Source: Loxodes magnus (Eukaryota; Ciliophora; Karyorelictea; Loxodida; Loxodidae). Taken from it: 64,000 nucleotides of DNA. Below the pieces are notes generated by a model. It was not told the origin of the DNA. It did no database searches and saw only the letters and a list, made by a program, of their open reading frames with translations. This document shows, piece by piece, positions 3 to 63,787 of the stretch (within the stretch, counting starts at the first letter, position 1; each line of letters begins with the position of its first letter). The stretch is from NCBI GenBank assembly GCA_946699065.1, contig CAMPDV010000013.1:62001-126000 (forward strand), written 5' to 3'. The position numbers and the translations under genes were made by a program.

Positions 3-3000
3 ACAGATTTGAGAGTCTTTTGTGGAATTGTAAGCAAATCTGAATTTTATATCAAAATGAGAAGAAAAACCAAAGGTTTCTTGGTATAATGAAGAGACAG
101 GATAACATGTTAGCAAGATTAAACTCAAAAAGAAGAAGCAATCAATGAAAAAATTTGTGCTCTTTAAAAGAAAATTTGCTATATATTAAATAAAACTGAA
201 AGAGTAAACCAAAGAAAACCATTAATTTGCAGTAAAAAAGCTTTTAATGCAAAATATTATAATCCACATTAATTCAGAAAATATTTTCAATAAATAAAGT
301 AAAGCCAAAGAAATTAGCAACAGCTAATAGAATAAATAGCGATATTATAAATATAGATAGGAAGTTATTGAAGAAATTAACATCCTTTTGAGTAAAAGCA
401 GAGAAAATAGACGGGTTTTCTTTACATAACTTCTAGAAAGGTAATTGAAACTAAATTTGACTATTTGAAGAGTATAAAAAATTACTGAATAACACAGAGC
501 TTAAACAATTATACATATGCAGGATATGAAGGAATAGGCAGAGATAGGTAGAATTTACTATCTAATGTGTAGATTTCTAAAGCAACATTTTCATTAGTAA
601 ATGAGAGCCTAAAATTTGTAAATAATGCTACAAATAAATAATAATCAATATAAATGAATACTGATCTTTCCTTAACTTAAATATAAGAATTGGAAACTTA
701 GAGTTAACTTCTCACTTAGACTTAATAGCAAAGTATAGTAAAACAAGCTATGCTTAGTGAGGAGCTAATGAACATGACACAATCATTTAAACTACAAGAT
801 GAGGCAATACTTGCTTCCAAGTAAGAAGCCCAAAATATTATAAACAACTTGGTTACTCAAATTTAATTCATTCAAGCTGAATTGAGTAAATGTAATTTGA
901 GACATAATGAAGTATAATAACATCTTAGGGAGGTAGAAACTCTTAACTAAAATCTCAAAGGTGAAAATTTTCATTTATTAAGCAAAATAGATCAGATCGA
1001 CTAAAAGGTACATTCACTCACAGTCAATTGCCAGTAACAACAGGCTTAATGTTAATTATTACAAAATGAGAATTATTAAATATCATAGGAACTGAGCTTT
1101 CAAAAAAATAAATATGCCAAATCAGTCAAAAGCATTTTTACATAAACAATCACTCCTCAGGCATAGAATGAACAAACATAAATTGAAATTCAATTCAGCA
1201 ACTAAATTTCTCAAGCAACTATATCGACTTTAGATTCAACTACTGGTACAGACTTATTATTCTTAGATCAATCTACCTAGTGCGACTTCGTTGAATTGAA
1301 GTATACAAAGTTGTAGAATTTATATGATAAATTAAACAAATAATTTATCAATTAAGATATATAGAGTGTCTACTAAAGACTTGTCTCGTGTTAATAAAAA
1401 TAGTTTTGAGAAAAGGAAACACAAACCTGTTTAAAAATTAATAGCAAAGATGCTTGAACATGAACAGAAAAAGGGAAATTAATAAGCAATTATAGTTAGA
1501 CAAGAATCATGGAGTTAAAGAATTAGGTTATTTAAACTTAAAATTCTATCAAGGCTAAGGATGAAGGAACAATAACAGTAGTTACCAATCATTAGCTAGT
1601 TGCTTCTTAACAAGAACTATAAATCACAAAATAGAATAATGGAAAACTGTAAGAGTAATATAATGAATTAAACGGATTATATGTTTAACTCATGCAGGAT
1701 TATGAGCATCAAGTAGAATTGAAGCTAAATGTTTATGCATAAATTTCAGAAATATAGAGAAAATAATAAGATGTTAAAACTCAATCTTACTTGAAAGAAA
1801 TAAAATGAAACGCTTCAACATAAACACTTTTAATTGATTAAATTTAAGAAGATTAGCAGATTGAAATTTTAGAAAATTCAAATATCTAGACATCATATGT
1901 GATGAATTGGGATAGCCAAACAAAATTTGGAAAGAGAAGTTGAAGAGATGCCAAATTTAACCAAGACACTTTAAACTTAAAATAGTCAAAATTTGGGTTT
2001 AATGAAATAAATATTGAAGAGATTTTAAATAAATACGAATTTAAAGACGCCTAACTAATTCAATTTATAAGGTCCAATAAATGATGAAATTAGAATCTTT
2101 TCACTTTAGTAGGCAATAGATTTATAACTTTATCTTGCAAACTAAACCATGCTACGTGTGATGGAAATGAAATAAATATAAAAATCGATAATAAATTGAG
2201 CGAAAAGTACGATTCATTAACATTATTCATTATAATAAATTACAGGTAATATATCAAAAATTGCCCCAAATTGCTTAACATATAAATTCATCAAAATGAG
2301 AAGATTCTCTGTATTTATGAGCCAGGAATAAAAGGAGGAGTTTTGACTTCATCATAAGAAATTCATCGATTTATAAAAAACGGAAATTATATAGTTAAAA
2401 CGCTGCTATAAACTGATTTTAGAATTAACTATATTGTCCTTTAAAAATAACTAAGACTCAAAGGAGGTGTAGAGAACAATGTAGAATAACCATATTAATG
2501 CAAACAAGAATTTGGGAATTAAGAAATAAAGATGCCAATCGATAAGCAAAGAGAGATAGGCATAATAAAGCTTGGACATATTAACATAAATGGAATTGGA
2601 AGCAAGCAATTAAACGTGGAAGAATTTATACGAAATAATGACTTAGACATTTTCTCAATTAATGAAACGTGATAAAAATAAGACTATCCTCCAATACTTA
2701 TTAATGGATATAGGACCTATTTCAAGAACTCAGGAAAAGGAGGAGTTTGCTTAATTGTTAGAGATTAACTTAATAGCACGGAATAGAATAGCATATAACA
2801 ATTAGCTCAAGAGAGGTTCGTTACAATCAAACTAGATAATATATTCATAACATCTTGTTACATGCCAGATAACAGCAAGAGTGAAAATATAAAAGACGAA
2901 GCATATGAATATATAAATGTATTCCTTAATTCTTTTCCTGACAACTCACATATATTATTAGGAGATTTTAACGCTCTACTATAAGACTTTGGGGATAACC

Positions 3001-6000
3001 CTATTAACAACTATGACAATACAAATAGATTCTAAGAATTCATTCTCTAAAACGATTTAGAAATAATAAATGATGCAAATATGAACACATGCTTACATAA
3101 AGGGAATAAAAATATGTATTGCAACGATTATATTGTCATCAGTAATCACTTGAATATGAATTAATTTAGAAATTTTCAGGTTCATAATTATAGCTTATTT
3201 TCAGATCATATTCCATTCACAGTTGAATTTGTATACCATAATCATCTTCAAACTGAAAAAATAAAAGTGAGAAAGTACAAAATAAGTAGACTGTAGGATC
3301 CTATTGATAAATTTATCTATTAGAATTCATTCAAAGATTAAGTAGAAGTATTCTTCCTAATTGATAGAGATAACTTAGAAGATTAATACACTTATATTAG
3401 AGACTGCATTTAAAACAATGCAGATTAAGTTTTAGGCTCATTTATTCCGGACCCGAAGTATAATAGACTTCCTAAGGACCTCACATAAAAATATATCGAA
3501 GCAAAGAGAGCAAATTAATTGTACAAAGAAACTTTAGCATATATAGGGAGGAATAACTAAGAAATCATTGATCTTCACTAAAGAGCGAACACATTATGAA
3601 AAAGCTTTTAGCATCATTTATGAAAATTTAAAAAACAAAAGGCCAAAAACAGATTCCTACTCCTCAATGAAACCACAAAAGATATGTTTTCTTAAGCAAA
3701 GAAAATACTTAACCCTAGACAAAGAAATTTGATGAACTTTAATAAGGAATTGAAGGACTAATTTGTAGAAGCATGGGAAAATTAGGTATTTAGCAAGCAT
3801 TCGAATTTAACTAACCAATAGATTGAACTAAGTAACTAGAAAATAGATGCAATTTATGAAAATAACATAGAAATTCAAAATTAACCCTTTTCTTACTTAT
3901 AAAATTTCGATCCTTTTACAATAGAAGAGATTACCTAATTTATAAGTCTAATTCCTAATGGTAAAGCAGCAGGGCCAGATGGAATAAAAGGAGAACTGCT
4001 AAAATATGCAGGATATTATCTAGCGTTGATGCTTCATTCTTTAATAAATAACATGCTTAGAATTGGAAGGATTCCTGAAGAGCTTAATACTTCTATCATA
4101 ATCCCCATTTTCAAAAAAGGAAGTAAAGACGATTGAAAAAACTGACGCCCTATTTCCCTTATCAATACTATTTTGAAATTATATGATAAGGCCCTTACGA
4201 AGAGACTCTACTCAATAATTTATGAAAGACAGTTAATCCACTCAAGCTAAATGGGGTTTATGAAGAACAAATAAACCACCTAATAAATATGAGTGATCCA
4301 ATAAATCATAGATCTTTATCGAAAACAAGCGAAAGGAAAAACTAAACTGATTGCAACTTTAATTGACGTAGAGAAAATGTTTGATTCTATTGAAAGAAGA
4401 ATTCTTTTTAAATAACTAAGAAGAGTCAAATTACCACTAGGTCTCATCTTGGCTTTAGAATCTTTTTATAATAACTTAACTACTTCCTTTATTATAGACG
4501 GAACAAATTCTAAGAAATTGAAATTTAGCAATGGAGTGATGTAAGGAAGTTCGCATGGACCTGTGCTTGCATTATTATACTATGACATTGTCATTAGACA
4601 TATAGAAAACAAAGGAGAAATATTAGGATTCAGATGTGCTAATTTTAAGAATAGGTTCACTTGTAGAGGTTGAGCTGACGATTTAATCCTATTATCGAAC
4701 TCATAAAAAAATATGTAGTCACTTATTAATGAAGCAAACTCCATTTTCAATTAGACATTTCTTAAAATAAATGTCTCCAAATGCGAAACGTTATAGTTTT
4801 TAAAAAAGAAAAGCAAAGAAACAAAACTAGACTTAAAAATAGGAGACCAAGCAATAATTCAGAAACAACAAGTCACATATTTAGGGGTGATCCTTCACCA
4901 AAAGAAGAATCTAATTAACCATTGCAAATACGTTGCTGCAAACTATCTTTCAGCAATTAAAAAGGCAGTATTTGCATTATCAAGATATAGAAACGTAACA
5001 CCTTGAAATTTCAAAATGCTTTGTAGACTGTTCACGCTTCCTAAAGCAGAATACGGTGGGGGCTTAATACCTTGGACTGTGCAATATGGAATAAATGGAA
5101 TCTTGAACAGAATTGAAAAGAGCATGAGATTAATAGCCAGAAAAGCCTTTTAATCGGCAGGAAATACGTTTAATGAATCATGCTTTGTAGACCTTAACTG
5201 GATGCCATTCAAACACATGATGGCTCTTAAGTATTTCAGGTTTTTCTTTAAGATTAGAAATGAAAGCTAAAATCAACCTTAATCGTCTATTGGAATATTG
5301 TTTGAGAATAATTATAAAGAGGGATATCAATATTATGATGAAGTTTAGAAATTGGCCTCATTTTATAAAATAGAAATTGATAATAAAGAGCACAATAACA
5401 ACTTAATTTAATTCAGTAAATATGTATAGGCATAAATATAAAAGACATATTTTGAATTAGCTCTTTCAAGATTCAGCAGAATGCCTACTGCATAAATATA
5501 TACAGAACAATTTTAAAACCTAAGATAATTCCCCAAAATAACATACACGAAATTAAACAAAAAATATTTGAAAGAAATAATTTGCATCTATAAGATTAGA
5601 AGTTAGTCTTACGCATTTCGAAAGACTCTGAAAGATCGAAATTATATTATTGAAAACCCTTTTTGTATATGCGGAGAATATGACACTCTCCAACATGTAA
5701 TGGAATGTATATATTACATTGATATAAGAGAATGATTGATCTCCAAAATTGGTTAATGTGATATTTTGAAACTAATAAGTTACGATTAACTATATATAAA
5801 CTCTTTTCCTAAGAAAAAAATAGAAATGGTGGATGAATAAATAAAAATATTCATTCAAATGTTTATTAAAAGGAGGCGAGAAATTCTATAACAAGAGAAA
5901 GAAGAAGAGAAATACGAGAAATAATAAAAAGAAGCAAATCTAAGAATAGAAAATGTTAATGAAGAGAATGAAGAATAATAAAAACAAGAAAACAAAGAAT

Positions 6001-6209
6001 AAGATGTCCAGCAAAATTAGATGTAAAATGATGAGGAAGAAGAAGATTGGAACGAAGAGGAAAACGATAGTGAAGATGAAGAAGAAGAAGATTGACAACA
6101 GAAAATAGAAAAAAATGAAAATTAGCTTGAAAATGAACAAGAAAGGAAATACTTAGAAGAAAAAAAAAACCTAAACTAGAAAATTAGTTCTGAAGAGCAA
6201 TAAACTTGA
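3..6209 (+). CDS. LINE polyprotein: coiled coil, AP endonuclease, reverse transcriptase (5' partial)
   Basis: Single frame of 2068 codons when TAA/TAG=Gln and TGA=Trp; residue number is position divided by 3. Residues about 230-370 are Gln/Glu-rich coiled coil. The AP-like endonuclease spans about 850-1090, with GHININ near 857, an INETW glutamate at 888, GDFN at 987 and SDH at 1067. The reverse transcriptase spans about 1300-1600, with KAAGPDG (1321), motif A aspartate (1455), VMQGSS (1513) and WADD (1557-1560). A C-x-C-x7-H-x3-C cluster at 1888-1902 resembles the Cys/His motif found C-terminal in many AP-endonuclease LINEs. A Glu/Asp/Gln-rich tail follows (about 1960-2060). I place the stop at TGA 6207-6209 because the 3' stem-loop follows at once. 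It would nick DNA and prime cDNA on the target. The long N-terminal fusion, instead of a separate zinc-knuckle ORF1, is unusual. Confidence 0.9.
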
Positions 6210-6238
6210 TATATAATAACATTTAAAAACAATATAAT

Positions 6239-6276
6239 ACCTTCAATTGGAAGAACATATTCTGAAAATTGAAGGT
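6239..6276 (+). other. 3'-terminal stem-loop of the LINE
   Basis: ACCTTCAATT at 6239-6248 pairs perfectly with AATTGAAGGT at 6267-6276, with a possible inner AGAA/TTCT pairing. It lies 30 bases after the proposed TGA stop and is followed by ACC and a T-run with TTTTTTAGTT at 6287-6296. LINE reverse transcriptases are known to recognise 3' stem-loops in their own RNA, so this is the likely template-recognition hairpin. The SINE-like elements end the same way. Confidence 0.6.
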
Positions 6277-6306
6277 ACCACAAATTTTTTTAGTTAAATT
6301 TAATTT

Positions 6307-11567: not shown

Positions 11568-11661
11568 ATGCCTCCTAACAAATAATCAACCAAAAACTAA
11601 CACCAAATCCAGTAATCAAACTCTCTAATCGAATATACTCTCTAGAGCGGAAAACAAAAAA

Positions 11662-12351
11662 ATGCAACAATCACTTCTAGACTTTATTTAACGATTAGAT
11701 TCTCAGACTTTTACTGTGCAATAATTATAAAACGAAAATTAATGGTTAAAAACGGAAATAAGCACTAAAGCCTTGATGTTGCAAGGTAATTAAAAACTGG
11801 AAAAAACGGAGCAAAAAATAGTAGAAATTAATAAACCATACAATTCTAATCTTAATAATGATCCTATGGTAATAGAAGAACAAAATTTAAATTCTTTTTC
11901 GGATCGGAAAAAAATTGTCAATTTTTTAAAATTGTAAAAATGCTAAAAATGCTAAAAATGCTTAAAAATAGGACATAACTCGAAATATTGTAAATCAAGA
12001 TGTTTTTATTGCTAAAAGGTTGGACACATCTTTAGAAGATGCTGGTATTTTCAGAAGAAGCAAGAATCTAATAATTGAAAGATATGAAATAATATGACAA
12101 AATTATACTGTTCTCCAGAAGGAAAACTTTACAAGAAAAAATTTTACAGTGGAGATAAATTACTATTGGATATAGTAAATGCTCAAAAAAGAAGGATGAG
12201 GAAGATATTGGGACCTAATTGAGTTTTAAGAAAAATTCCTAAGATCAAGAAAGGTTAAATCTGTGCAACACGATATGCAATAGAAGAAGCAAGCTCTGAA
12301 AAATACCTGAACGATTCATTTACATCTTAAAACTCATAAACTAATTAGTGA
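11662..12351 (+). CDS. ORF B, Gag-like protein with two CCHC zinc knuckles (copy 1)
   Basis: ATG to TGA, 229 residues. The N-terminal 80 residues are Gln/Glu/Lys-rich and likely helical. Two perfect CX2CX4HX4C knuckles follow: CQKCLKIGHNSKYC (11950-11991) and CFYCQKVGHIFRRC (12001-12042), the nucleic-acid binding fold of Gag and LINE ORF1 proteins. Downstream, KLYCSPEGKLYKKK matches the signature after the knuckle in the Gag-only elements at 35214, 57651 and 62830. An ATG at 11568 would add an N-terminus only with a one-base shift in an A-run. It is probably an old Gag-like insertion carried along in the unit. Confidence 0.7.
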
Positions 12352-12582
12352 CAAACCAAATAAAGGTGAAGTCACTTTAATAAATTATTTTATGTTATAT
12401 ATGTTGCTTTCATTAATCATCTAATTTACTTATATACATTTATTTATTTTATACTTATACCAAAATTTATAATTAGATACTAAATAAAGTAATAATGTAG
12501 TTTTAGATACTATTGACTGTATTTTTGATGGTAACTGTTATAAATTACCTTTATAGCTTTTGTAGTCTAAATAATAATAAAA

Positions 12583-15444: not shown

Positions 15445-15462
15445 AATTAATAATTTGAATGA

Positions 15463-15769
15463 ATAATTGAAAAGATGGTGGGAGCTGAGAATGACCTTCG
15501 TGACAACACTTTCCGGTTTTATGGCTAGGAACAAGTTCCTTTCCTGTCGCTGAGAAAGTCCCTGGTCAGAGTCATTTTCTGAAGGGAATGCTGTCTTTGA
15601 AATTATCCGCTCTTGGTAGGGGATTGAAGCCTGGCTAATCATAGCGATGGAGCTCCCTAGCAGCTGTGCCTGGAGCACAACAGGATATCCCCGTTATTCT
15701 ATAAAAAGAGAGCGTCGGGTCGTGAAATCGGAAAGGAGTTTCCGGTCCAAAAATTTTTTAGTTGAAATG
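15463..15769 (+). mobile_element. SINE-like element of structured RNA, copy 1
   Basis: 307 bp, clearly richer in G+C than its surroundings, flanked by an 18-bp direct repeat (15445-15462 and 15770-15787). The equivalent site in array copy 3 (about 43640-43665) has no insertion. No protein motif; a minus-strand open frame (15439-15678) is incidental. Hairpins: AGGAAC/GTTCCT (15527-15540), CAGA/TCTG (15567-15581), GTGC/GCAC (15666-15678), CGGAAA/TTTCCG (15729-15744). It ends CC, then A- and T-runs and TTTTTTAGTT, as the LINE does. I infer a SINE whose body comes from a structured non-coding RNA not identified here. Confidence 0.75.
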
Positions 15770-16680: not shown

Positions 16681-16689
16681 ATGAATTAG

Positions 16690-26438: not shown

Positions 26439-26669
26439 CAAACCAAATAAAGGTGAAGTCACTTTAATAAATTATTTTATGTTATATATGTTGCTTTCAT
26501 TAATCATCTAATTTACTTATATACATTTATTTATTTTATACTTATACCAAAATTTATAATTAGATACTAAATAAAGTAATAATGTAGTTTTAGATACTAT
26601 TGACTGTATTTTTGATGGTAACTGTTATAAATTACCTTTATAGCTTTTGTAGTCTAAATAATAATAAAA

Positions 26670-29541: not shown

Positions 29542-29559
29542 AATTAATAATTTGAATGA

Positions 29560-29866: not shown

Positions 29867-29936
29867 AATTAATAATTTGAATGATGGGTGAGATAGGCAA
29901 CAATTGATAGAATAATAAAAAATAATTTAACTTAAT

Positions 29937-30777: not shown

Positions 30778-31447
30778 ATGAATTAGATATTTATTTGATT
30801 TATTATAATTTATAAATCCTATTAATTTATCTTTATTTCGGTTAGTAATCGAGTAGGTCAAATAAAAATATAAAAGCTTGAAATAGAACTCTTATTTTAA
30901 TTTGACGTTTCTTTAATCCCTTTTTATTCTATCTCTTTACTTTAATAAGTATCCTTAAGCAGATCAGAAGGTAGAAAGTGAAAAAAATCATAGGAGATAA
31001 TGATTAATCCTCAAGAACCTTTTAATTACTTAGCAGTAGCTTGATTAATTCTTCAGTATTACTTTTGCAAGTTTACTTTTAAACACGTTAACTTCAAATA
31101 AACTTTAAAATTATTCACTTAGTTACTTCGCCAACATCTTGAATTTAATTTTTCAGCTCAAGCTGCTTAAAACAAATTTTTTAAGTTTAGTTTTTTATTA
31201 ATTAAGTTATTTCTACTCTACTTAAATGCAACCATATTTAATTCTTCTATGCTATTTTAAAATAATTAAACTGTAGTTTGTTTTTAAGCTAGCTGCATTT
31301 AAACTCTTCTTTTTTACAGTATAAAAATATTACAAATGTTTATTATATTTTACTGAAGAAAATTAGTTAATTTTAGCTGATTCATTTTCTAAAAATATCG
31401 TATCTACTCTAAGTTTGAGTAATATTTACGATAAAAAATTATATCTT

Positions 31448-32206
31448 ATGCTCATCTTTTCAGGACTATCATTCTTTTCAACTAAACCTACGTTTTCTTT
31501 TAAGGGTCAATTAATTATAAAAAACCTCAAGCACCATCAACTAAGTCTAACTCTCAATTCATTTCAGATTAATAAATAATTTTAATAAATTGATAGTTTT
31601 AATAACTCTAATAGAGCAGCATTTTAAGAAAAATGCTATATGAGATGCAGCTCTTTCAACTTTTGACACACCTTGCGAAATCAATAAGTTTTAGATAATT
31701 TCTAGCTCAATATGTCAGGCTGAAGTAAAGCTCTTTTGAGGACTATAACTAATTTGGTGTTTTAAGTGAAAGTATCTAAGATATAAAATTCTCGGCTGTA
31801 ATAAATTTAGTTACTTTCTAATAAAATTCTCTGACGTTATAAGGAAGTAAAAGAATAGCCTCAAAGAATTAATTAGGTAAATATACCATTAAAATTTTAG
31901 CTATATATACTTCAATTTTAAAATAATCATAAATCGAATGATAATCAGACCAGACGCTCTTTCCTTTCTAAGTTTGAGCCTTGTCTTTAAGTAGATAACC
32001 CATACCACCTCATTAAATGTCAATTTCAAGTTACAAATCAGATCTCTAAATTTCAGGTTGACCATTTTTATTACCCTGGCTCTGCTCCTTTAGTAAACAT
32101 CTTTCTTTATATGGAGTCAGCTATAATAACCTTCTCAAAATTTCTTTACCAATACGATTCAAAACGGAGGAGCTTAACTAGGAAAAGCAAAAATAATTTA
32201 ATCTGA
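31448..32206 (+). CDS. ORF F, copy 2 (252 residues)
   Basis: Same start and TGA as copy 1, two residues shorter through the compensated indels near 31775-31800. GAA to TAA gives Glu to Gln. Function unknown. Confidence 0.5.
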
Positions 32207-32296
32207 TTCACTCAGTAGTTGATTATTTTGGATATAAGTGATAGATTTTTATTTATTTTTGGAGTATAATTAACTTAATAAGCTCATTATGGGCAA

Positions 32297-34268
32297 ATGA
32301 GAAATGAAAAATTCATTAACTTTTTAGAAAATGAATATTGAATAAACCTTTTCTGATCAAATAAAATAGAATTAAATATAAAAACTCTAAGTATATAATT
32401 CAATCTAGCTAATTTTTAAAAGAAAGAGGCTGTGGAACTTCTTGGTCTTAATTAAACTAAAGATTAACAAAAGTAAAATATTATAAGCAAACTTAAATTA
32501 TAGACACTAAATAACTAGCTAACCTAAGCTAATTTACAAACATTGTCAATTAAAATGAAAGATTTTCTGAGAAAAATCAAGATTAAATAAGAAGGTTTAA
32601 AAGAGTTTGAAAGATAAGAGTAATGTAAGACATAAAATATATAAATTTATAAGTATTCCTTTATTTTCGCCTTCAAATTTTTTGCATAATATCTTATAAA
32701 ATTGCCAAAGATTCGATTTAGTTAATATAAGAGAGAATACAGTTATTTTTGCCTTAGATAGTAGATATAATATTTTAAAAGAATAAGATAGAAAAGATGA
32801 TTATTAGCAAAACTATAAATTATAAAAATCTAAAGTTAAATTATATTAAACTTGATAAATAAAGGAATAAGAGAAAGACTAGGATTAGAATTTACTCTCA
32901 TTCTAAACTTTATAACAAACTATACCTATTAAAGAGAGATCTTTTACTTACGATATTTACTAAACTATAAAATGTACTTAACAGACTGTCAAATAGTCAT
33001 TTGGAGTAAAAGTTAATAGCAAATAAGCTATAATTGAAATTAAAGATAGTTTCTTTTGAGATAAGATAAAGCTTGCTAAATAATAAAAGTAATATATACT
33101 TAAAAATAGATTAATAGAAGCTCTTGTTACAAAACTGAGCAAAAACAATTTCTCCTAAGATAAACGTAATTAAAACGGTTATAAAGTAAGATTCTAAATA
33201 AGGAACAACTTTTTGCTTTCCTAAAGTTAAAGATACTAAATTCAGAATTGAAATAAAGCAGAATGTTTGTAATTTAATATATTTAATATAAGTTAAAGAT
33301 CGAAGAATAAGATAAAATAGTGTAAAAAAGCCATAATAGAATTTAATAGTATTATTAATAACTTTTCAAAATTTCTTGCATTTTATAATATCGTCACACA
33401 GATTACAGGTTTAAAGCAACCAGTAAAATAAAAACGTAGAATATATTGCTAACAAAAACTAATAATTAAATATTTTAAGAAAATAAAAACTAAACTCAAC
33501 TTTTATTTAAGATGAGCAAAGAGAAATTCGGTAAATATAACTAATAACTTAAAATAAGAAATGCAAAAATAATTAAAACTAATATATAAACTTGCTTTGC
33601 TTGTCTAATGAGATTTCTACATTTAAAATCATCTAGAACTAAAATAAGTCTTATTTAATATAAATTAGATAGTTAAAATTTACATAAGTACTAATTAGAC
33701 CTAAATAAGAGAATATCGGAATTTAAAATTGATATTTTTATACTTATTATTTCTATAGATGGGCTAAGTAGCTTATTATGATCAGAGATAAAAAAAACTA
33801 GAAACATTTTAGCTGAAATTTTAACTTGATTATATAATAAAAAATCCTTTTAGTCTACGTAAAGAAATGCTTTAACTGCTACTAAATATATTTTTAATAT
33901 ATGGTTAGGATTGAAAATGCTAAAAGGTACTAGATAACACATTATTAAGCTAAGATAACTACAGAAAAAAATTTGCTAGAGTGAAAAAAAGTTTTTTCTA
34001 GTATTTTTTCTTTTTGACCGAGTGTAGAAACGAAAATTTACCCAAATGTGATAATATAAATATAGAATCAAATTTCAGTATGAAGTATAGTAAAAGGGTG
34101 TAATCTAAGATTGTAAATCTAAAGTAGTACGTTGTGCTTAATTACTGAATAGAAAACGGTAAAGATTTAAAAGAATATATTTCTTTCTTCCAAATGAGAA
34201 TAATTAAGCTACATAAAATAATTCAGATACTGTAATTACACTCCAAAAAGATAGAAAAATATAGAGGC
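32297..34268 (+). CDS. ORF G, large unrecognised protein (copy 2, spans the unit junction)
   Basis: Starts MRNEKFINFLENEYW. Residues 30-105 are helical and Lys/Gln-rich (KEAVELLGLNQTKDQQKQ, then KDFLRKIKIKQEGLKEFE). Near 32620 the best frame shifts by one; a GT...AG segment of 34 nt at 32620-32653 would join them. The next part (IRENTVIFALDSRYNILKEQ, VTKLSKNNFSQDKRNQNGYK) is also protein-like. Past the junction at 33704, A-run indels among copies make the frame unsure. Overall a protein of up to 650 residues with no known domain. Confidence 0.42.
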
Positions 34269-34348
34269 TGTGCTAAAATGTCCTTTTTTTTCTTGTTTTT
34301 CGGATATTAAAGATTAACAAATATTATGAAATTTTTTAAGTCTATCAA

Positions 34349-34855
34349 ATGTAGGCTTCTAAGAAATCCAAAGCAGTCGTTCAACCTAGACTTTTGTTTA
34401 TTTGTATTTCTTCCAAATTACTTGTACTTCAATTCAGAAGCGTTTAAAAACATTGGATATTAGGATCATAATTCAGGCTTTTTTGCTCTTGATGAAGCCG
34501 ATCTAAATTGCTTGTTTTTAAAAAAATTACTGTGTCTTAAAAGAAATATAAAGCTAATCATAATTATATCAACTACTTGGCTTGGACATATCTTCCATCT
34601 TCTTTGAGATTTATTTTCTTTTTGCCTCTTCAGTTTATTGAATTTATCAGAACCATTTCAAATACTTTAAAAAATCTTTGGCAAAGTAGTGAAATTAACA
34701 GAGCTTTACTTAAAGTATTACCTAATTTTAAAATTTGAATATTTAATTTCCAGCTTTATAGAAAACGCAACAACAATGGTAAAATTTTCGACTGCTATAA
34801 TTATGTCGCTATTCATCAGAACAGTTTACAAATAAATAATTTCCATCTAATTTGA
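34349..34855 (+). CDS. ORF P, copy 3
   Basis: Same 168-codon frame and TGA end as copy 2. Differences include synonymous TCT/TCC, AGA/AGG, TCA/TCT, CCC/CCT, CTC/CTT, AAG/AAA and GTT/GTC, and replacements such as Tyr to His, Asn to Ser and Arg to His. Keeping the frame through 507 bases while the copy-1 version has lost it supports recent coding function. Product unknown. Confidence 0.5.
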
Positions 34856-35205
34856 TCAAATAGTACTCCTACTTAAGCTTTTGTATATATTATTATTTAT
34901 ATTATTTTAAAGATAAATATATAAAAGTCATTATGACTTTAAAAATATAATAAAATTAAAAATTTTATTTATATTATTCAAAAATTATTGATAATATACT
35001 GTTAGCAATAGTGTTAATATATCTAATTTTATTTTAAATTAAATGTTTTAAATTATTTATTTTATTTCTTTTAGTTTTATATTCCTTTATGCTCAATCTC
35101 AACTTTTTATCATTTTTTACATTTTATTTCATTCTATTAATTCAATGCTTTAAAATTCCTTTATATGTTTTACTCTTATTATTTTTCTTTTAATACCAAA
35201 ATTAA

Positions 35206-36006
35206 ATAAAAAAATGGAATAATCTATTCGCCTTTCCAAAAACCAAATTAAGAACGCAAAAAGGAAAGCTGCGAAACAAATGCAGAGACAACAACAAGAA
35301 GAAGATAAATCAAGTTCCTCCTCTGAAGGAAAAATCATAATCGGAACAATAGAATCGAATCCAGTAAAGGTATAAAAATAATCCGAAATATAAATATAGC
35401 TTGACCAAATGAAAACAATAATACAAAATTATTAGGAAACAATTTACAACCAAGGGGAAAAAATAAGAGAACTAATGAATACTATCGAAGATTAAAATAA
35501 CGAGCTTCTAATAATTAGACGATAATTGATTTAGAATAATCTAGTCACGGAATAGTAACTATATGAATAATCTCAATCGAATTTTAAGCAAGAACAAAAT
35601 ATGATTATCGAAAATGTTTCTACATAAGCAAACGTTTAAGAAAAATAGAATGACTAAAAGATTAATATAGATTTAATCAAAAGAATCGATTAACTTGAAA
35701 AAAAAGTATTTCTGAAGAGATTCAAGAAAAAACAAGGCAAACAATGCTATTATTGCAAATCAAAGTGACACTTATTACAAAATTGCGATTAGTGAAGATA
35801 AATTTAGATAAAAGAACAATAAAGAACGTTAAGCATACTCAGCAGACTCTGAATAACCTAAACAGGGATTTACAAGAGAAAACTATTCACATAAAAGACA
35901 GAAGATCCTCTGTGGTTCCATCCACGCTAAAAAAATGGTAGCAAAAACCTGGTTGAAAATCCAGGGAATGCTAAACTTTAATTACTTTTAGTTTACTATT
36001 ATTATT
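35206..36006 (+). mobile_element. Gag-only retroelement with 13-bp target duplication
   Basis: ATACCAAAATTAA at 35193-35205 is repeated at 36007-36019; array copies 1 and 2 have one copy and no insert. The element starts ATAAAAAAATGG, so the start codon lies within ten bases of its 5' end. The 3' end has two hairpins (GTGG/CCAC and CCTGG/CCAGG), then CTTTTAGTTTACTA and a TTA microsatellite. No reverse transcriptase is encoded, so it must move in trans. Confidence 0.85.
35214..35981 (+). CDS. Gag/ORF1-like protein with CCHC knuckle
   Basis: About 255 residues. Basic N-terminus rich in Lys/Gln, then coiled coil with KIRELMNTIEDQNNELL (around residues 90-107), which is almost repeated in the elements at 44324 (minus) and 57651. 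The knuckle CYYCKSKWHLLQNC at 35745-35786 is CX2CX4HX4C and its Trp is TGA. It ends HPRQKNGSKNLVENPGNA. The last codon given is a TAA one codon from where the 57651 relative has TGA. TAA is either a stop here or is read through. It likely binds the element RNA and chaperones its insertion. Confidence 0.8.
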
Positions 36007-38135
36007 ATACCAAAATTAAATTTTTTTTACTTTTACGTATATTTTATAATGGATAATGTTATTAAAATATTCTATTTTTTATAATACCTTTTTGTTCATA
36101 ATTTTGTATATTTAATCAATTTTTTTATTTATATTATACTTATTTTAAGAATTTAAAATTTGGTTTATGACTACTGTCAGTTTGATCTATAAACTAGCTA
36201 CTGTAGATAAGAATCGACGGTCTCTAGAGGATAGACTTAACTTATTCAAGATTATCGCTTGTTTTAAAACTCGACTGACGGTTTGCTCCTATTCTATGAT
36301 TCCTGGTTCTTGATTCAAATCTCCTTACTTCACATGTCGTATAATAAAGCAAATATTAAAGATGATTATGTTATGCTTTGAGGAAACTTACACTTTTCTA
36401 AAATTAATACCTATTAAGATAGTTGTCTGCTTTGAAAAAATCCAAGATTCAAGATCGCATAAGAATTCCCTCTTGGAGAAACTGGAATATCTTAAGATTT
36501 AATCGAAATTGAGTCGAGAAAATTAAAGAAAGATTCAATAAATTTAAAGACACTTTTAATCAGCTAATAAATAGTTTATTTACTATTTTGCAGTGAAATC
36601 AGAGACTGTGAATTAATTATATATTTAGACTAACTCCTAGACTTCTCTTCAATAATAGTATTCTTGATTCGGTTAGGTGATCTTTTTTATACCCCTTGTT
36701 AGTCCTAGCCTCTCTAGATATTGATAACTCCTTATTTGAGCCTTGAAAATCCTGATTTAATCTGTGGCAGATTATTTTATTAAAATATAAAAATAAAGCA
36801 AATATTAATTAAAAAGAAGCATAATTTATTTCTATAGAAAAGATTGAAATAATTGAATAAAGAACTACTCATTTAATCTAAAGTTTTTTATAGGAAAAAT
36901 AGTTTAAATAGTTATAGTTAATCAAATTAATAAAAAATCATAATATAAAAGGTAACGAGAGAAAATAAATTTTGCAAAAATAAATGCTTAAACAGTTGCT
37001 ATAGTTAGTTTTTCCCATTTCTAAACTTTCTGTTTATTTTAAATTATATTATTAAATTGCTTTCTAAATCACTTTATAAATTTAATTTATTTATTAATCA
37101 TTTTTAAAATTTTTCATATTATCAGTTAAATTTAAAAATATTAACTAGATAGATAAATTTATTTAAATTGCTGTAAGATTATTAAATAGCTTAAAATAAA
37201 CTTTGAAACTAGTTTTTCAGTTGATTTAAGTTAATTAATAATTAAACAAAATAAATTTTAAATTAAAGCATTAAATTTTACTTTTTATCTTATTAGTTTA
37301 AAATTTAAACTTTCTAGTAATGTTTTTTAATTTGCAACAAAGTGCTAAAAAAGATATATTGAATTGATTTTTTTAATAAAATTGTTTTAGTCTAAAGAGC
37401 GCTTTCATAAGAATATATTCTTGTTACTTTTATATATTGACATGAAAAAATAAATTGGAGTGAAATGTGTTGGATTAAAGTAGTTTTAAATAAGAAATGT
37501 AAAGTAGAAATAAAAAGAAGATTATAAAGATATAAGAATAAAGATGAATAGTCTTAAAATGATTGGTTTATTATTTAATTCTATTTAATATTATTTATAA
37601 AGCTATTAAATTTTTAGAATTAAAGTAATTTAAGGTTTTCTTATAAATTGTGGATGATGATTTATTAATTTTAAAATATGAGATCTATTAATAATAATGT
37701 TTATATATCTTGTATTTGTTTATAAGCTAATTTAAATGTAAGTTTTATATTTAGTTGTATAAATATTAACTAAAATCATTATATATCTAAATTACTAAAT
37801 TTACTATTATTTAAACTAGATATTTACTCATTTTTATTATACATATCATAGTCTAGAAACTATACCCTATTACTCTCCATCTTATATATTTTACATAAAC
37901 ACCTTATTAACTAATATAAGGCTTAAGACTAAATACTAGAACAAATATCAGAACATTTAACCAATATTAATATCAAAAGTAAAAGAAAACCATCTTATCA
38001 AGTGACCGATAAAGCCATTTATATTATTCTGGAATCAACCTACGCTTTTTGGAATCATCTAATCAAAATAAAAAGCTCCTGATTCAAGCTAACTTTATAA
38101 CGGTTAGAAATATATCTACAAAAGATAGAGATTAA

Positions 38136-38555
38136 ATGAAGGCCTTATAAGAAAGAAATTAGAAATCTATAAAAAATTGATTAGAAATTGATGAATTAGA
38201 AAAAAGATAGAAAAAACAATTGAATAAATTGGATTTAAGCGAGTAAGAATATCAATACTTTAGAAAATTGAGCAAACAATGATTCTCAAAAAAAGAATAA
38301 AATTGAGTTGATGTAGCAGCAAACCTGTTCTCCTATAATAACAATACAAAAAGTATAAAATGACTCTGAAGAAGCATATTAAAAAGACCTAGTAAAATAC
38401 AACAAGCTTTACTGCAATTCTATTAGAATTTACAGGAGTAAGATATCATTAGTGTAACAGAACTGACAGAATCAAATATAGATAATGAAAGAGGAAATAG
38501 AAAAACTGAAAAAATTAATTAAAGTTCTAAAGAATAAAATAAAATTAATGAATGA
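38136..38555 (+). CDS. ORF A1, copy 3
   Basis: Same length and TGA end as the other copies. It carries CAA at 38217-38219 where copies 1 and 2 have TAA, which is a direct sign that TAA reads as Gln. Replacements include Asn to Asp, Arg to Ser and Gln to Trp (TAA to TGA). Frame unbroken. Confidence 0.5.
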
Positions 38556-38980
38556 TAAACTAAAATAAATCCAAGAAGAACTCAATTAGTAAAATTAATG
38601 TATTGAATCTGATGGCGAGGAAGTTACCATTAAGAATGTCGAAACCAGACATTTTATGGATGAAGATGAGCTATATTCGTGAGAGGAGAAACTTTGTTTA
38701 AACGGGGAAAATTAATAAGAAAGAATACCTATTAACCAAGATATTTTTAGTTAAGTTAAGAAATTAATTATATAATTAATTTAAATATAATTTGAAGCTA
38801 TTAAATTTAATAAAAGGATATCTATTTAATTTAATAAATATCTATAAAATATTTTTATTAATTTTATTGTATATCAATTTCAATTTTATTTTAAATTTTT
38901 TATTATCTATTGTTTCATTTCTTGTAATATACATCATATTAGAAAATTCTAAAAAAGAAATTGAACTATCGAAATATTAA
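38485..38980 (+). CDS. ORF A2, copy 3, frame change before the hydrophobic part
   Basis: The coiled-coil part matches copies 1 and 2 with replacements (Gln to Leu, Phe to Leu, Gly to Glu, Gln to Glu). One extra T near 38854 shifts the frame ahead of the hydrophobic run, which then reads from an alternative ATG at 38792 (MKLLNLIKGY). Either the two parts are separate proteins, or this copy is broken, or this is a homopolymer error. Confidence 0.35.
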
Positions 38981-39882
38981 TGGCCAACTAAAATCTTATA
39001 AATATGTAACTGATTAAGAAATTTTAGTTTAATTTAATGAATTTTATATTAATCTATATATTTTTTATTTATGTTATATGTAAAAATAACATAAATACAA
39101 ATTTATAACTATCTTATTTATTTTAATTAATGGTTTCTTTTTATTTGTTTTATTTTTAAATTATAAATATTGTTGCCTTTTATATTTTTAACTTTTTATA
39201 AATTAATTTAGACAGAAAGGGTCTTAAAAAATGTATTTTTACCTTTAGTTTAAAAATTGAATCTAACTTGATAAAATTTAAATATTATAATAATTTTAGT
39301 TTCCTTTTTTAACTCTTTTAATGAAGTAAAATATTTCTGCAGTTTATAGTTGAATTATTTTAGGTTTAGATGATATTATTTTATAATAATTTATAAATCT
39401 ATTACTAATACTTGTATTTACTAAAAGCATATATATTTTATATCTGTATATTTATATAATTATTTTATTAATTCTTATCTCATATTATATATTTCTCTTT
39501 TATTACTTTTCTTTTATTACAAATTAGATATTTTATTTATTTATCTAAGTTAAAATTATTATTTTATATAAATTTAGATTATCTTTAAATATATTTCTCT
39601 AAGTACTAAAAATTATTAAGCATAGTTATATAAATAAGCTGTTTATAAATAACTTAAGCTACTAAAGTATAAATAAATATTATATATAAATAATATTATA
39701 TATTTAAATTAAGTAAAATACAACTATATCAAACTATTAATAAACCTTAAATTTACTTTATTTTCATTCAAAATATTATATAAATCAAATGCCTCCTAAC
39801 AAATAATCAACCAAAAACTAACACCAAATCCAGTAATCAAACTCTCTAATCGAATATACTCTCTAGAGCGGAAAACAAAAAA

Positions 39883-40572
39883 ATGCAACAATCACTTCTA
39901 GACTTTATTTAACGATTAGATTCTCTAACTTTTACTGTGCAATAATTATAAAACGAAAATTAATGGTTAAAAACGGAAATAAGCACTAAAGCCTTGATGT
40001 TGCAAGGTAATTAAAAACTGGAAAAAACGGAGCAAAAAATAGTAGAAATTAATAAACCATACAATTCTAATCTTAATAATGATCCTATGGTAATAGAAGA
40101 ACAAAATTTAAATTCTTTTTCGGATCGGAAAAAAATTGTCAATTTTTTAAAATTGTAAAAATGCTAAAAATGCTAAAAATGCTTAAAAATAGGACATAAC
40201 TCGAAATATTGTAAATCAAGATGTTTTTATTGCTAAAAGGTTGGACACATCTTTAGAAGATGCTGGTATTTTCAGAAGAAGCAAGAATCTAATAATTGAA
40301 AGATATGAAATAATATGACAAAATTATACTGTTCTCCAGAAGGAAAACTTTACAAGAAAAAATTATACAGTGGAGATAAATTACTATTGGATATAGTAAA
40401 TGCTCAAAAAAGAAGGACGAGGAAGATATTGGGACCTAATTGAGATTGAAGAAAAATTCCTAAGATCAAGAAAGGTTAAATCTGTACAACACGATATGCA
40501 ATAGAAGAAGCAAGCTCTGAAAAAGACCTGAACGATTCATTTACATCTTAAAACTCATAAACTAATTAGTGA
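39883..40572 (+). CDS. ORF B, copy 3
   Basis: Full length with both knuckles intact. All differences from copies 1 and 2 that I see inside the ORF are replacements (Gln to Leu, Phe to Leu, Met to Thr, Val to Asp, Leu to Trp, Ala to Thr, Tyr to Asp), with no synonymous change. That pattern fits a sequence no longer under purifying selection, although the frame is unbroken. Confidence 0.65.
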
Positions 40573-40803
40573 CAAACCAAATAAAGGTGAAGTCACTTTA
40601 ATAAATTATTTTATGTTATATATGTTGCTTGCATTAATCATCTAATTTACTTATATACATTTATTTATTTTATACTTATACCAAAATATATAATTAGATA
40701 CTAAATAAAGTAATAATGTAGTTTTAGATACTATTGACTGTATTTTTGATGGTAACTGTTATAAATTACCTTTATAGCTTTTGTAGTCTAAATAATAATA
40801 AAA

Positions 40804-43561: not shown

Positions 43562-43715
43562 ATAAATAAAAATAAAATATCTAAAGAAATAATAAAGACG
43601 AGTAGCAAGCAAAAATTTTAATCATAAAGTATAAAAATTACTAAAATAATTATTTAAATTACACCTGAGATAGGTAACAATTGATAGAATAATAAAATCT
43701 CATAATAATAGTATT

Positions 43716-44324
43716 AACTAAATGTTTAAAAGTTTTGGAGTTCTCCGGGTTTCAACCGATTTCGCTCCGCCTTTTTTTAACGTGGATATATACCACGGCC
43801 TTTTTTAAAGGTGGGTGTCTACCATAAAAATTTTTCATATTAATATTAAAAAACTTCTCTTTATAAATCCAGAATCGGTTTATCAAAGCTTGTTCAGCAT
43901 CGTTCATGTTTTGATTTCTTCTCTTTTTGCAAATTTTATCATTTTTTGTATTTTTTTAATAAGTGATATTTCGAGTTACAGCATCAACAATTTTTTATCT
44001 ATTTTTTCTTAATCCACTATGAAAAAAAAGTTTTTTCTATTTTTCTATTCTTTGAATTAAATTTTTATCATTATTCTATTCATTAATTATTTCTTGATCT
44101 TTAGCTTAAGAAGTGAGGAATAGATTACTCATATTTACTCCTTGCTTGAAATTTTTCTAAGACTGAATATAGAGCTATTGTTCTGTCACAACATTGCTTT
44201 ATATAAGTTATTGCTTAAGAATTAGCAATTCGTTATTTTAGTCTTCGATGTTATTCATAAGATCTCTAATTCTTTCTTCTTGATTACACATTTGTTCTTC
44301 ATACTTAGAAATTAGATTTTTCAT
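43716..44324 (-). pseudogene. Truncated Gag-like protein, last knuckle Cys replaced by Tyr
   Basis: From ATG 44324 leftwards the frame reads MKNLISKYEEQ, then RIRDLMNNIEDQNNELLILK, closely matching the coiled coil of the 35214 protein, and VVTEQQLYIQSQKNFKQ. The knuckle CWCCNSKYHLLKKY (43989-43948) has Tyr where the last Cys should be. The tail YPRQKKAERNRLKPGEL is homologous to HPRQKNGSKNLVENPG. The missing N-terminus and lost zinc ligand suggest a dead copy. Confidence 0.65.
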
Positions 44325-44345
44325 CTTTTCTTTTTATCAATTTTC
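43716..44345 (-). mobile_element. Minus-strand Gag-only element, 5'-truncated
   Basis: Read on the minus strand, the end (43716-43830) carries the same 3' hairpins as the elements at 35206 and 57644, including CGTGG/CCACG around 43780-43797, and the family 3' end in a variant form. It begins directly beyond the breakpoint of array copy 3. Compared with 35206 it lacks the first 60-70 codons, as expected for incomplete reverse transcription. I could not find a convincing target duplication. Confidence 0.65.
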
Positions 44346-45928
44346 CAAAGAAAAGTTAATTACAAAAGATAGTTAAAAAAAGGAATATATAAATATAATT
44401 TAAATTTAGGAAAATTATAAATAATCTAAAATTCAAACTTATTTTAATAGCTAAGTTTCAAATAATTCTATAACTATCTATATCATCTTTTTATATTTTA
44501 ATCTTTTATAATGTATAAGATTAATAAATGATGATGTCCTATAGAGCAAAACATGTAGAATTGTTGATTAGGAACAGAAAGATATAGAATAGTAGACTAA
44601 TAAAATGTATTAAGAGTAAATAATAATCTGTTAGATTAGTTCTAAATAACTTATATTAGCTAATCTAATACTTATATCATCTCATGCTTATTACAAAGAA
44701 ATACATTGTTCTAAGTTTACTCTTTCTATTAATTCAGAAAATAATAATAGAAGATATTAAAAATATATTTTCTTTCTTAAAAAAGCTAATAATTTTCTTA
44801 ATAGCAAACAAATAATTTTAAGAAAGATAGTATTAATAGTGGTAACTATGTTTTTTGGATAAGTATAGAATAATAGAATTAAGTTTTTATCTTTAAATAA
44901 TCTAGAATAATTTAGGTATTATTAATTTAAAATGATAATTACAAAAATAACATAAATAATAAATATTAGTTTGCTATAAAAAGAGAAAGATATCTAAATG
45001 TATTAATTATAACTAATCTAATATCTAAATTAATTAAAGAGAAATTTAATTAATAACTAATAAAGCTAAAAGGATAAAATATTAAGTATTTAATAGACAT
45101 AATTAAACATATTAAAGCTTATTTTAATAATAAAATTAAATATTACTATTTAATAATTGTAAGATAAAATTAGTGATACACCATTTCTAGTTAGTTTAAA
45201 TATTTAATTTCTACTACTTCTATTTATTACATTTATATATTTTGCTTAGAATCAACATTAAAATAAATTATATTAGTTTATTATTATAAGAGAGACCTTT
45301 ATAAATAAAAAGTTTTAATGAAATAGTAGTAAGAAAATGGACAATTAAAAGATTTTATCTTGTAAGTTCTAAAAATAATTTGATGTTTTTTAATATTTAT
45401 TTAAGCTAATTTATAAGAAACTTATTTTGTTTCATTTTTTTAATTAGTAAATAGCTTAAATAAATATTTTTTTGATTAAATGTAAGTGAAAAGCAATAAT
45501 TAATAACAGTAGATTTAAAAGAATTGTAATATTTTATTTATAATTTAAAAGGGTTTATAAAGAAATAAGGTTTTCTTATTAAGAGTCTTTGATTTAAAGT
45601 ACAAATAAGTTGTAATTAATGGATGCATATTAAAGTTATTATAATAAGGATATAATTCTTCGTTATAAAACTTTTGAAATAATAATTTATCCTTTTATTT
45701 AAAAGTAAAAAGATATAAAATAATTAAAATTGTAAAAGCTTATAAACTATTAGTTTAATATCTTGTCTTGTTTTAAGACAAAAATAGAAAAATCAATGTT
45801 TAAGAAATGAGATATTTATAAGTATGCTTAATAAATAATTTAATTGTTTACTTGTATTGAAATTAAGTAAGTAAAATTAATTGAGTTATTTTAATTAAAA
45901 ATTTATAGAAGTAAGTTATAAAATTAAA
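44346..45928. other. Non-coding 5' flank of WD40 gene A
   Basis: AT-rich. From 44640 it is alignable with 58999-60161, but indels of one and two bases fall at random, so I see no coding constraint. Shared blocks such as GATACACCATTTCTA and AAGGTTTTCTTATTAAGAGT may include the promoter. Nothing else recognised. Confidence 0.5.
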
Positions 45929-57643: not shown

Positions 57644-58467
57644 TAAAAAGATGTTAAGCAAGCAGTAGAAAATTGAAGCAAAGAAAGCCAGAAAGCATGC
57701 ATAAAAGCAAATAGAACATCAAATAAAAGAACTTACCGACCCTGACTCTCCTCCATCGGTAAAAGGAAAGCGCCTTGAAGGGAATACTAAGGAGCAGGAA
57801 TCTGATACAATCGAATCATTAAGCAATCAAATTTGACTTATGAAGAAAAATTTCTAAAAGCAGGATGAGGTAATATTTAATCTCGCGGAAAAGATAAGGG
57901 AACTCCTAAATACAATCGAAGAACTTAATTAGGAAACAAACTGTTTAAGGAATCAACTGATACAAAGTCAAGTAGTGACTAAAGAACAACTCTGACTATA
58001 ATCCTAATCTAGATCTAACAAAGTTGACAGAATGGACATTGAATAAGAATAAAAAACATAGAACTAATAGAATTAATAAGAATTGAAATAAGAATAGAAT
58101 CTAATAGCTAGAATAGAAAAGATAGAGAGCCACTTATATCCAGAATTCAAGCCTTAAATCACCAAATATAGAAGATGCTGGTTCTGCCATTCAAATAACC
58201 ATTTACTGAAGACTTGCCAAAGCTTTAAGTAACTAAAGAGAAAGGAAGATCAAAAGACGTGAAGATAACTTACAAGACTATACGTAACTCCATAAGGAGT
58301 ATTCAAGAAGAAGATTTCCAACGGAACAAGAAGATTATCATAGTGGTTACCTCCCACTTAAAAAACTTGGTCGTGGTTTCCACCACGTTAAAAAACTGGC
58401 AGCGAGAACCTGGTTTAGATTCCAGGGAACGCAAACTTTTTTTGACTTTTAGTTTACTATATATATA
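57644..58467 (+). mobile_element. Gag-only retroelement with 17-bp target duplication
   Basis: TATAAGTTCAAAGCAAA at 57627-57643 recurs at 58468-58484. It starts TAAAAAGATG, so the leader is seven bases. The 3' end has CGTGGT/ACCACG and CCTGG/CCAGG hairpins (about 58373-58427), CTTTTAGTTTACTA and a TA microsatellite that runs into the target repeat. It encodes no enzyme. Confidence 0.85.
57651..58445 (+). CDS. Gag/ORF1-like protein with CCHC knuckle
   Basis: 264 residues, ATG to TGA. Lys/Gln-rich N-terminus, an acidic Pro patch (TDPDSPPSVKGKR), then coiled coil with KIRELLNTIEELNQETN. The knuckle CWFCHSNNHLLKTC is at 58176-58217 (CX2CX4HX4C). RLYVTPQGVFKKK follows, the family signature, and the end PPRQKTGSENLVQIPGNA matches the 35214 protein. 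Probably an RNA-binding particle or chaperone protein of a trans-mobilised element. Confidence 0.85.
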
Positions 58468-62822: not shown

Positions 62823-63787
62823 AAAAAAAATGGTTGAAGGTTTCAATAAGGGCTTTATGACCACCTCTTCCTAAGCTAAAAAGGAAGGGAGGATGCAAGA
62901 AACCAATTCTCGGCAGTCTTCTTAACTTTAACCCCAACTTTTTTCTTGACATCCTGGAACCTAGGGCAACCAGGAATAATATAAAGAAATTAAAAAAATC
63001 TAACATTCGGAAACTCCAACTTCAACTTCAACTTCAACTTCAAGCGAGAAGCCAAGGAAGCAGATGAAGTCTGCCCTTCACCAGGAGGTTTCTTAATTCA
63101 ATCCTTCTGGCTAGATGAGCATGGAGCAGCTCATAAAAGTGGTCCTAAACCTCCAGGAAGAGGTTTAAAAATTGAAGCATTTGAACGAAAAACAAATGAT
63201 AAAACTAGAAGAAAAGAACTAAATGGACGAGTCTCGTATAGACAACTACGAGCGCTAAATGGATACATTCTACAACATCCAAAATCACTAGGATATGAAC
63301 ACAACTAAGCTAAAGGATCTTGTTATGAAATAAGAATAGGAGATTCAACTTCTTAAAGAATCAAGAATGGAACAACTGAATACTGGATCGATCCCAATGG
63401 TTGTCGAACACTAAGTTTAACCTCGGATGAGACTAATCCCGATTAGGAAGAGATGCTTCTGCTGCGGAAACCAACAACATCTTTATCGGAACTGTCGGAA
63501 ATTCCAATAGAAACAACGGGATTTCTGATAAGCAAAGCGAATAGAAAAAATTAGATTAAACAAGATTTTTTACAACAAGAATGGAAGAATGTACAAGAAG
63601 AAGATGGAGCTAAATACAAGACTAGACTGGAATTTAGGACGGAAAACCTAATTTAAAAACCCGCGGATGGGAACGCGTAATCTTCCTATCGACCCAAACA
63701 TTTTAATTAACAGCGAGGAGCTTGAAGCTCTGTACTCCTGAAAATCCCTAAAAACGGAGAAACTTTTTAGTTATTAAATTAAATAAA
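62823..63787 (+). mobile_element. Gag-only retroelement with 14-bp target duplication
   Basis: TAAAAAAAATTATT at 62809-62822 recurs at 63788-63801, and copy A of the duplication shows the empty site near 48010-48022. It starts AAAAAAAATGG, so the ATG is almost at the 5' end. The 3' end has CTTTTTAGTT (63763-63772), then a TTAAATTAAATAAA tail. G+C is well above the flanks. No reverse transcriptase encoded. Confidence 0.85.
62830..63741 (+). CDS. Gag/ORF1-like protein with CCHC knuckle (third subtype)
   Basis: 303 residues from ATG to TGA 63739-63741. A Gln/Ser/Thr-rich N-terminus includes a TSTSTSTS run from an ACTTCA microsatellite (63017-63042). Coiled coil follows (KVVLNLQEEVQKLKHLNEKQ, LKDLVMKQEQEIQLLKE). 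The knuckle CFCCGNQQHLYRNC is at 63454-63495. KIFYNKNGRMYKKK is the family signature. The C-terminus EELEALYS before TGA resembles DELYS before TGA in ORF A2, which hints that both TGA are real stops. It lacks the RELMNTIED block of the other elements, so it is a distant member. Confidence 0.82.

Follow-up and report, generated by a model that had tools for sequence, protein, structure and literature searches.

Gag-only retroelements in the ciliate Loxodes magnus and their probable mobilisation in trans by a LINE

How does a retroelement that encodes a structural protein and no enzyme spread, and why does it keep that gene? The question is raised by a 64-kb stretch of Loxodes magnus DNA, referred to here as the window, in which a first-pass annotation had described four short elements encoding only a Gag-like protein. 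The published account of L. magnus repeats, in the part available to us, covers autonomous LINEs and repeats that for the most part are unclassified, with no mention of Gag-only elements (PMC11441545); a search of the open-licence literature, with some papers judged by title, for Gag-only LINE relatives or Gag retrotransposons in Loxodes found none. In this report, we find that the observation is real, goes beyond chance and is mostly as described, which partly confirms the annotation. We consider it likely that the four elements (E1-E4), and probably a fifth (E5), are one-gene, non-autonomous non-LTR retrotransposons, copied through target-primed reverse transcription by the endonuclease and reverse transcriptase (EN-RT) of a LINE acting in trans.

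The window has a GC content of 20-27% per 4 kb. It holds no ORF of 120 aa under translation table 11 and 112 of at least 150 aa under table 6; long frames appear only when TAA and TAG are read as glutamine. There is also good evidence that TGA is sense here and specifies tryptophan. The clearest case is a host WD40 gene (45441-47780, with a second copy at 59675-61990; Pfam WD40), read from 45441, in which the repeats end in IKI-W-[NHD] and the W is TGG in some sister repeats and TGA in others. In the LINE described below, a single frame continues for several kb with scattered TGA codons, three of which align with His, Phe and Phe of human L1 ORF2p (in NET-x-QK, KN-x-RPISL and G-x-ADD); these positions fit an aromatic residue, but do not by themselves name Trp. 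That frames are closed by TGA is ruled out mainly by the WD40 gene, with the long LINE frame in addition. The code of the window is TAA/TAG = Q and TGA = W, and every codon can be sense, which fits table 27, the code of karyorelicts, or table 28, that of Condylostoma. For L. magnus, UGA has been reported to encode tryptophan provided that it lies at a sufficient distance from the poly(A) tail (PMC11441545).

Much of the window is duplicated. By alignment, a unit of ~14 kb is present in three tandem copies (6307-18749, 20387-32863 and 33704-43659); two further segments, 44636-48216 and 58993-63999, are duplicates of each other. These segments provide natural empty sites for insertions. Identity among the tandem copies is a mosaic (7771-15460 against 21851-29557 and 36007-43659), with long identical runs beside runs that are 5-25% different, as gene conversion, or the assembly of haplotypes, would give. 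No Rfam family matched the window at gathering thresholds.

Three of the Gag-only elements are full-length, and all lie on the forward strand. E1 (35208..36006, 799 bp) has an ORF from the ATG at 35214, read with TAA/TAG as Q and TGA as W, and a CCHC knuckle at 35745. It is bounded by an exact 15-nt target-site duplication (TSD), ATACCAAAATTAAAT, at 35193-35207 and 36007-36021, and is absent from tandem copies 1 and 2, where the empty sites lie near 7771-7806 and 21851-21886. E3 (57644..58467, 824 bp; ATG at 57651, CCHC at 58176) is related to E1 over nearly its whole length, and its exact 17-nt TSD, TATAAGTTCAAAGCAAA, occurs at 57627 and 58468. E4 (62823..63786, 964 bp; ATG at 62830, CCHC at 63454) is more divergent; its exact 15-nt TSD, ATAAAAAAAATTATT, at 62808 and 63787, is composed of A and T only and is weak alone, and is backed by an empty site in the paralogue at about 48005-48016. 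Thus, the earlier counts of three elements with target duplications and two with an empty paralogous site both hold. E1, E3 and E4 begin 6-7 nt ahead of the ATG, end in short A/T repeats, which are (ATT)n in E1 and (TA)n in E3 rather than poly(A), and have a GC content of 28-37% against 17-23% in their 500-nt flanks. Their TSDs of variable length (15, 17 and 15 nt) and their lack of LTRs are LINE-type traits.

The remaining two elements are less complete or less well delimited. E2 (43697..44370, reverse strand), recognised by phmmer, translation and alignment of its 3' end and uncertain at its 5' boundary, is a degraded relative of E1 and E3. Its N-terminal part is missing, a frameshift splits the coil from the knuckle, and the last knuckle Cys has become Tyr; the 3' RNA is retained. 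No direct repeat of at least 10 nt was found at its ends. E5, found by phmmer from E3, is a relative with two knuckles that occurs in every one of the three tandem copies. Copy 1 lies on the forward strand at 11569..12400 (boundaries approximate), with knuckles at 11950 and 12001 and LYCSPEGKLYKKK at 12103; the other knuckles are at 26037/26088 and 40171/40222. A clear TSD is absent, the only repeats being A/T-rich and 10-11 nt long. Domestication of E5 as a host gene was considered and rejected, for copies 1 and 3 conserve E5 no better than its neighbours, which are themselves mosaic. Adjoining E5, at 12500-14600, RING-finger and Kelch domains occupy separate frames of the tandem unit and probably represent one or two host genes interrupted by an intron or a frameshift. 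The four CCHC elements first reported thereby become three that carry a knuckle with no enzyme found and one that is degraded and frameshifted, with E5 added as a fifth relative.

No Pfam enzyme domain was detected in E1, E3, E4, E5 or the knuckle frame of E2. Among E1-E4, no Pfam match reached its curated cut-off, and a weak match of E1 to Head_binding (0.065) was taken as chance; E5 matched zf-CCHC only at an E value of 0.87, below the cut-off of that family. Weak phmmer matches to the Gag-like proteins (E 0.026-0.093) lie at 15753-17252, at 30003-31502 and, on both strands, at 48249-50251. The E3 and LINE proteins had no relatives in prokaryotic contigs, nor did the LINE and E1 proteins in viral contigs, results that say little because the collections are prokaryotic or viral and back-translated patterns may miss TAA, TAG and TGA as sense codons.

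The knuckle itself is hard to ascribe to chance. The pattern C-x2-C-x4-H-x4-C occurs at nine sites in the 64 kb (six frames, all codons sense), namely in E1, E3 and E4 and twice in each of the three E5 copies, and at none in 40 first-order Markov sequences. In our alignment (A1), identity to E3 is 42% for E1, 20% for E4 and 25% for E5, and the invariant residues are the four of the knuckle plus one G and two K of a motif that follows it. A signature had been proposed for this motif. With the spacing originally written it matches E4 only (one match in six frames), whereas the mended form, [LI][YFW]-x4-G-x(1,2)-[FY]-K-[KR]-K, matches E1, E3, E4 and the three E5 copies and nothing else in the window, with one match in 40 Markov sequences; having been fitted to these same sequences, it is not an independent test. 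A TGA of E1 (in LWITQTG) aligns here with the Tyr of LYVTPQG in E3. E2 lacks the signature: its FWIYKEK, considered as a match, sits in the coil frame and not in the knuckle frame. The predicted coiled coil fares unevenly. Shuffled sequences did as well in heptad count in 15 of 1000 cases for E1, 0 for E3, 279 for E4 and 336 for E5, which supports a coil in E1 and E3 and not in E4 or E5; the coil of the original description thus gains support in the first two.

Is the protein under selection? The first-pass annotation had argued so from the intact ORFs. E1, E3 and E4 are open only when TGA is read as W, and, because TAA, TAG and TGA can all be sense, an intact ORF is weak evidence; E2, moreover, is broken. 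Better support for the same claim comes from codon-level constraint among E1, E2 and E3. On nucleotide alignments, the differences between E1 and E3 at codon positions 1/2/3 number 79/70/121 (571 in-phase of 655 aligned sites, p=1.3e-7). For the coil, the counts are 26/24/46 between E1 and E2 (291 of 291 sites in phase, p=1e-3) and 24/23/44 between E3 and E2 (205 of 289 sites in phase, p=2e-4). The NG86 method gives a dN of 0.53 and a dS of 2.6 for E1 and E3 over 244 codons, and an infinite dS for both coil pairs with E2, so that dN/dS values are rough, the synonymous sites being near saturation. In protein-guided control frames (two shifted, three reverse), pn/ps was 0.86, 1.18, 0.80, 0.63 and 0.91 against 0.56 in the true frame; the gap is modest, and alignment bias, which in protein-guided alignment favours a low dN, accounts for part of it, not all. 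The codon-position test argues against neutrality for E1-E3, and a dN/dS near one was not seen in the window. Between E4 and E3, the differences (164/134/161) have no third-position excess, and the claim of constraint is therefore confined to E1, E2 and E3; protein-guided counts for E4 and E5 are 136/98/159. The frame seems to run on into the 3' RNA for 28 codons (5/5/15 between E1 and E3), a pattern that RNA pairing could also give. Since E1, E2 and E3 pass from gag into one 3' RNA with no room for a reverse transcriptase, it was most likely as Gag-only elements that they were constrained.

If the elements lack enzymes, these would have to come from elsewhere, and the window contains a candidate partner. 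A LINE occupies 3..6306 on the forward strand, its 5' end probably lying outside the window, and comprises a coil-rich upstream region, an APE-type endonuclease and a reverse transcriptase (Pfam Exo_endo_phos, 1.1e-9, and RVT_1, 5.3e-32; 3e-29 against L1 ORF2p), followed by a 3' hairpin and TTTTTTTAGTT. The 3' junction falls at ~6306, where the alignment of tandem copy 1 starts, and copies 2 and 3 have the empty site. The hairpin is of 11 bp (z -2.94) and is followed by AAATTTTTTTAGTTAAA. No CCHC pattern (six frames, all codons sense) and no detectable similarity to gag were found in the 6.3 kb of this LINE that the window covers. Upstream of the endonuclease, an 810-aa frame (3-2432) is continuous with ORF2 and has neither a Pfam match nor a CCHC pattern; it could represent a different kind of ORF1, or else a fused N-terminal region.

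Shorter insertions accompany the LINE. Two SINE-like elements of ~300 bp, S1 (15463..15769, forward strand) and S2 (48929-49231), have a GC content of 45%, are about 80% identical and match no Rfam family at E values up to 1. S1 has an 18-nt TSD, AATTAATAATTTGAATGA, and carries TTTTAGTT at 15756, 14 nt from its end; no TSD was found for S2. Their 3' hairpins differ on both strands (CGGAAA..TTTCCG and CTGCAA..TTGCAG). A further insertion, E6 (18750-19525), is found in tandem copy 1; an exact 21-nt TSD flanks it, and copy 2 has the empty site near 32836. It begins with AAAAAATGG, and none of its six frames has a Pfam match at the curated cut-off. The exact 3' octamer discussed below is missing, and E6 is possibly an mRNA retrocopy or another type of element. 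Several of these kinds of element open with oligo-A and then (G)ATG, as AAAAATGG in E1, E4 and E6 and as AAAAGATG in E3, S1 and S2, possibly a common 5' feature or start site.

Several of these elements resemble one another at their 3' ends. E1 (35893..36006, forward strand) ends in a structured RNA of two hairpins, TTTTAGTT and the (ATT)n tail, and E3 (58350..58467, forward strand) has the same architecture with a (TA)n tail. The two hairpins, a repeat tail and a ACTTTTAGTT block, which E2 has with a single change, are common to E1, E2 and E3; E1 and E3 are 72.5% identical over 120 nt here, continuous with gag. Over 14 pairs, drawn by hand on these three sequences, 95.2% of cells are paired and four pairs have changed on both sides; when the pairs are slid by 1-3 columns, 27-41% of cells pair and 0-1 pairs have changed on both sides. 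The observed values were reached by 0, 4, 4, 53 and 4 of 500 shuffles over five measures, the weak one being further pair types (53/500). Folded singly, the 3' ends of E1-E4 and S1 are not unusual (z -0.4 to -1.5).

The octamer TTTTAGTT extends this resemblance to the LINE. At five of eight ends (LINE, S1, E1, E3 and E4) it is found no more than 50 nt from the 3' junction, and it is absent from E6 and S2; E2 has only TTTAGTT. With one end per family (LINE, S1, E1, E4 and E6), four of five share it. The octamer was chosen after the ends had been seen. When five 50-nt windows were drawn at random 20000 times, an 8-mer of any kind recurred in at least four of the five in 7 draws, and one containing G or C in none (0/20000), which counters mere AT-richness as the explanation. 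In sum, the LINE, E1 and E3 have the hairpin plus TTTTAGTT and E4 has TTTTAGTT, on the evidence of one LINE and a motif defined post hoc. The Gag-only elements thus keep LINE-like 3' ends and have no reverse transcriptase downstream, and simple 3'-deleted parts of a longer LINE were not seen in the window.

An octamer common to the LINE, S1, E1, E3 and E4 points to trans-mobilisation by one machinery, and, given the shared 3' end and the TSDs, we regard trans-mobilisation as the most likely explanation. The EN-RT of a LINE would recognise the 3' hairpin followed by TTTTAGTT and the simple-repeat tail, nick the target, and copy the element RNA into DNA starting at the 3' end. The LINE of the window, or a sister of it, is the likely partner. 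The encoded protein would be of the ORF1p/Gag type: its N-terminus is basic, and it has a putative coiled coil, the CCHC knuckle and the conserved basic motif. Most likely, it forms a coat on its own RNA and helps to bring this RNA to the partner reverse transcriptase; it may do so preferentially in cis, as the first-pass annotation had proposed. Such a ribonucleoprotein role is probable from the domain make-up and the selection described above.

A possible, though on balance unlikely, alternative is that the elements are by-products in the manner of HAL1, that is, internal deletions of a two-ORF LINE located elsewhere, with gag having been selected in that parent only. In mammals, HAL1 is reported to have had several origins (PMC5753468). 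Judged by eye, E4 (beyond the octamer) and E5 (wholly) differ from E1-E3 at the 3' end, and here too several origins are therefore possible. However, E1, E2 and E3 have a single gag-to-3'-end junction and yet an excess of third-position differences, and most of their divergence probably postdates loss of the reverse transcriptase. Nor does the LINE in the window look like such a parent, as the 6.3 kb seen have no CCHC and no detectable similarity to gag.

That same deficit suggests another arrangement, which we view as doubtful: an autonomous LINE without a CCHC Gag could use the protein of the Gag-only elements, making the two mutually dependent. Mutual dependence has been discussed for HeT-A and TART, and here the LINE and the Gag-only elements have one type of 3' end. 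Further, the LINE part seen, without a CCHC, is 6.3 kb long, similar to the LINE consensus lengths of 5-6 kb reported for L. magnus (PMC11441545). On the other hand, the 810-aa region upstream could already provide an ORF1 of a different kind, and, because the LINE 5' end is outside the window, a knuckle-bearing ORF1 further upstream is possible. Equally speculative is the full system that this would imply, in which an EN-RT LINE without a CCHC Gag is supplied by long-lived and diversified Gag-only elements, all parts, the SINE-like ones included, are joined by one 3' tag (hairpin plus TTTTAGTT), and every codon can be sense. Least probable is that LINE machinery has moved processed mRNA copies of a host CCHC protein family: E1, E3 and E4 do start 6-7 nt before the ATG, and E6, flanked by a 21-nt TSD, may be an mRNA copy of unrelated origin, but the tails of (ATT)n in E1 and (TA)n in E3 in place of poly(A), the covarying 3' RNA in E1-E3 and the LINE octamer in E1, E3 and E4 are unexpected for simple mRNA copies.

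If our preferred reading of trans-mobilised Gag-only elements is correct, a ciliate branch joins the few known enzyme-free, Gag-coding relatives of LINEs, and its gag was apparently selected after the reverse transcriptase was lost. With a LINE, a SINE-like element and Gag-only elements bearing a common 3' tag in one 64-kb stretch, the question of why a LINE parasite keeps a structural gene becomes directly testable. Should the LINE lack a Gag of its own, it would constitute a divided retrotransposon outside Drosophila telomeres.

How do these elements compare with known systems? A SINE is short and non-coding and has an RNA polymerase III promoter, whereas E1, E2 and E3 show coding constraint, and no tRNA was found in the window (ARAGORN, bacterial code). 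In stringent LINE-SINE pairs, such as UnaL2/UnaSINE, the SINE partners to our knowledge code for nothing, whereas one partner set here codes for a Gag-like protein. For ZfL2, a stringent-type LINE, recognition of a 3' stem-loop by the encoded protein has been described (PMC4176376), and LINE-SINE pairs are described as sharing 3' ends that include a stem-loop (PMC6510757).

HeT-A is not known to make target duplications, whereas the E elements are single interior insertions between duplicated segments, with TSDs of 15-17 nt; its tails are oligo(A), those of the E elements short A/T repeats. This telomeric element of Drosophila encodes only a Gag-like protein, and it transposes to chromosome ends alone, where it forms tandem arrays (PMC3776773). 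The E elements resemble it in having Gag only and lacking the enzymes for transposition; their interior sites with TSDs exclude an element of the telomeric HeT-A kind. HAL1 (half-L1), a non-autonomous LINE derivative of mammals, encodes ORF1p only (PMC5753468), and so is likewise a LINE-type element with an ORF1p/Gag-like protein alone. It had been offered as the precedent for the Loxodes elements; it is a valid one, but not the sole one, as HeT-A is also Gag only. HAL1 derives from L1, whereas a gag-bearing parent LINE for the E elements was not found within the 64-kb window, and the E tail is a short repeat that follows a hairpin. We suggest, by analogy, that the E elements may work like HeT-A, HAL1 and the stringent-LINE systems, a likeness that implies no membership in any of them. 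Enzyme-free, Gag-coding relatives of LINEs are already known in HeT-A and HAL1; what the Loxodes elements would add to them is a ciliate branch.
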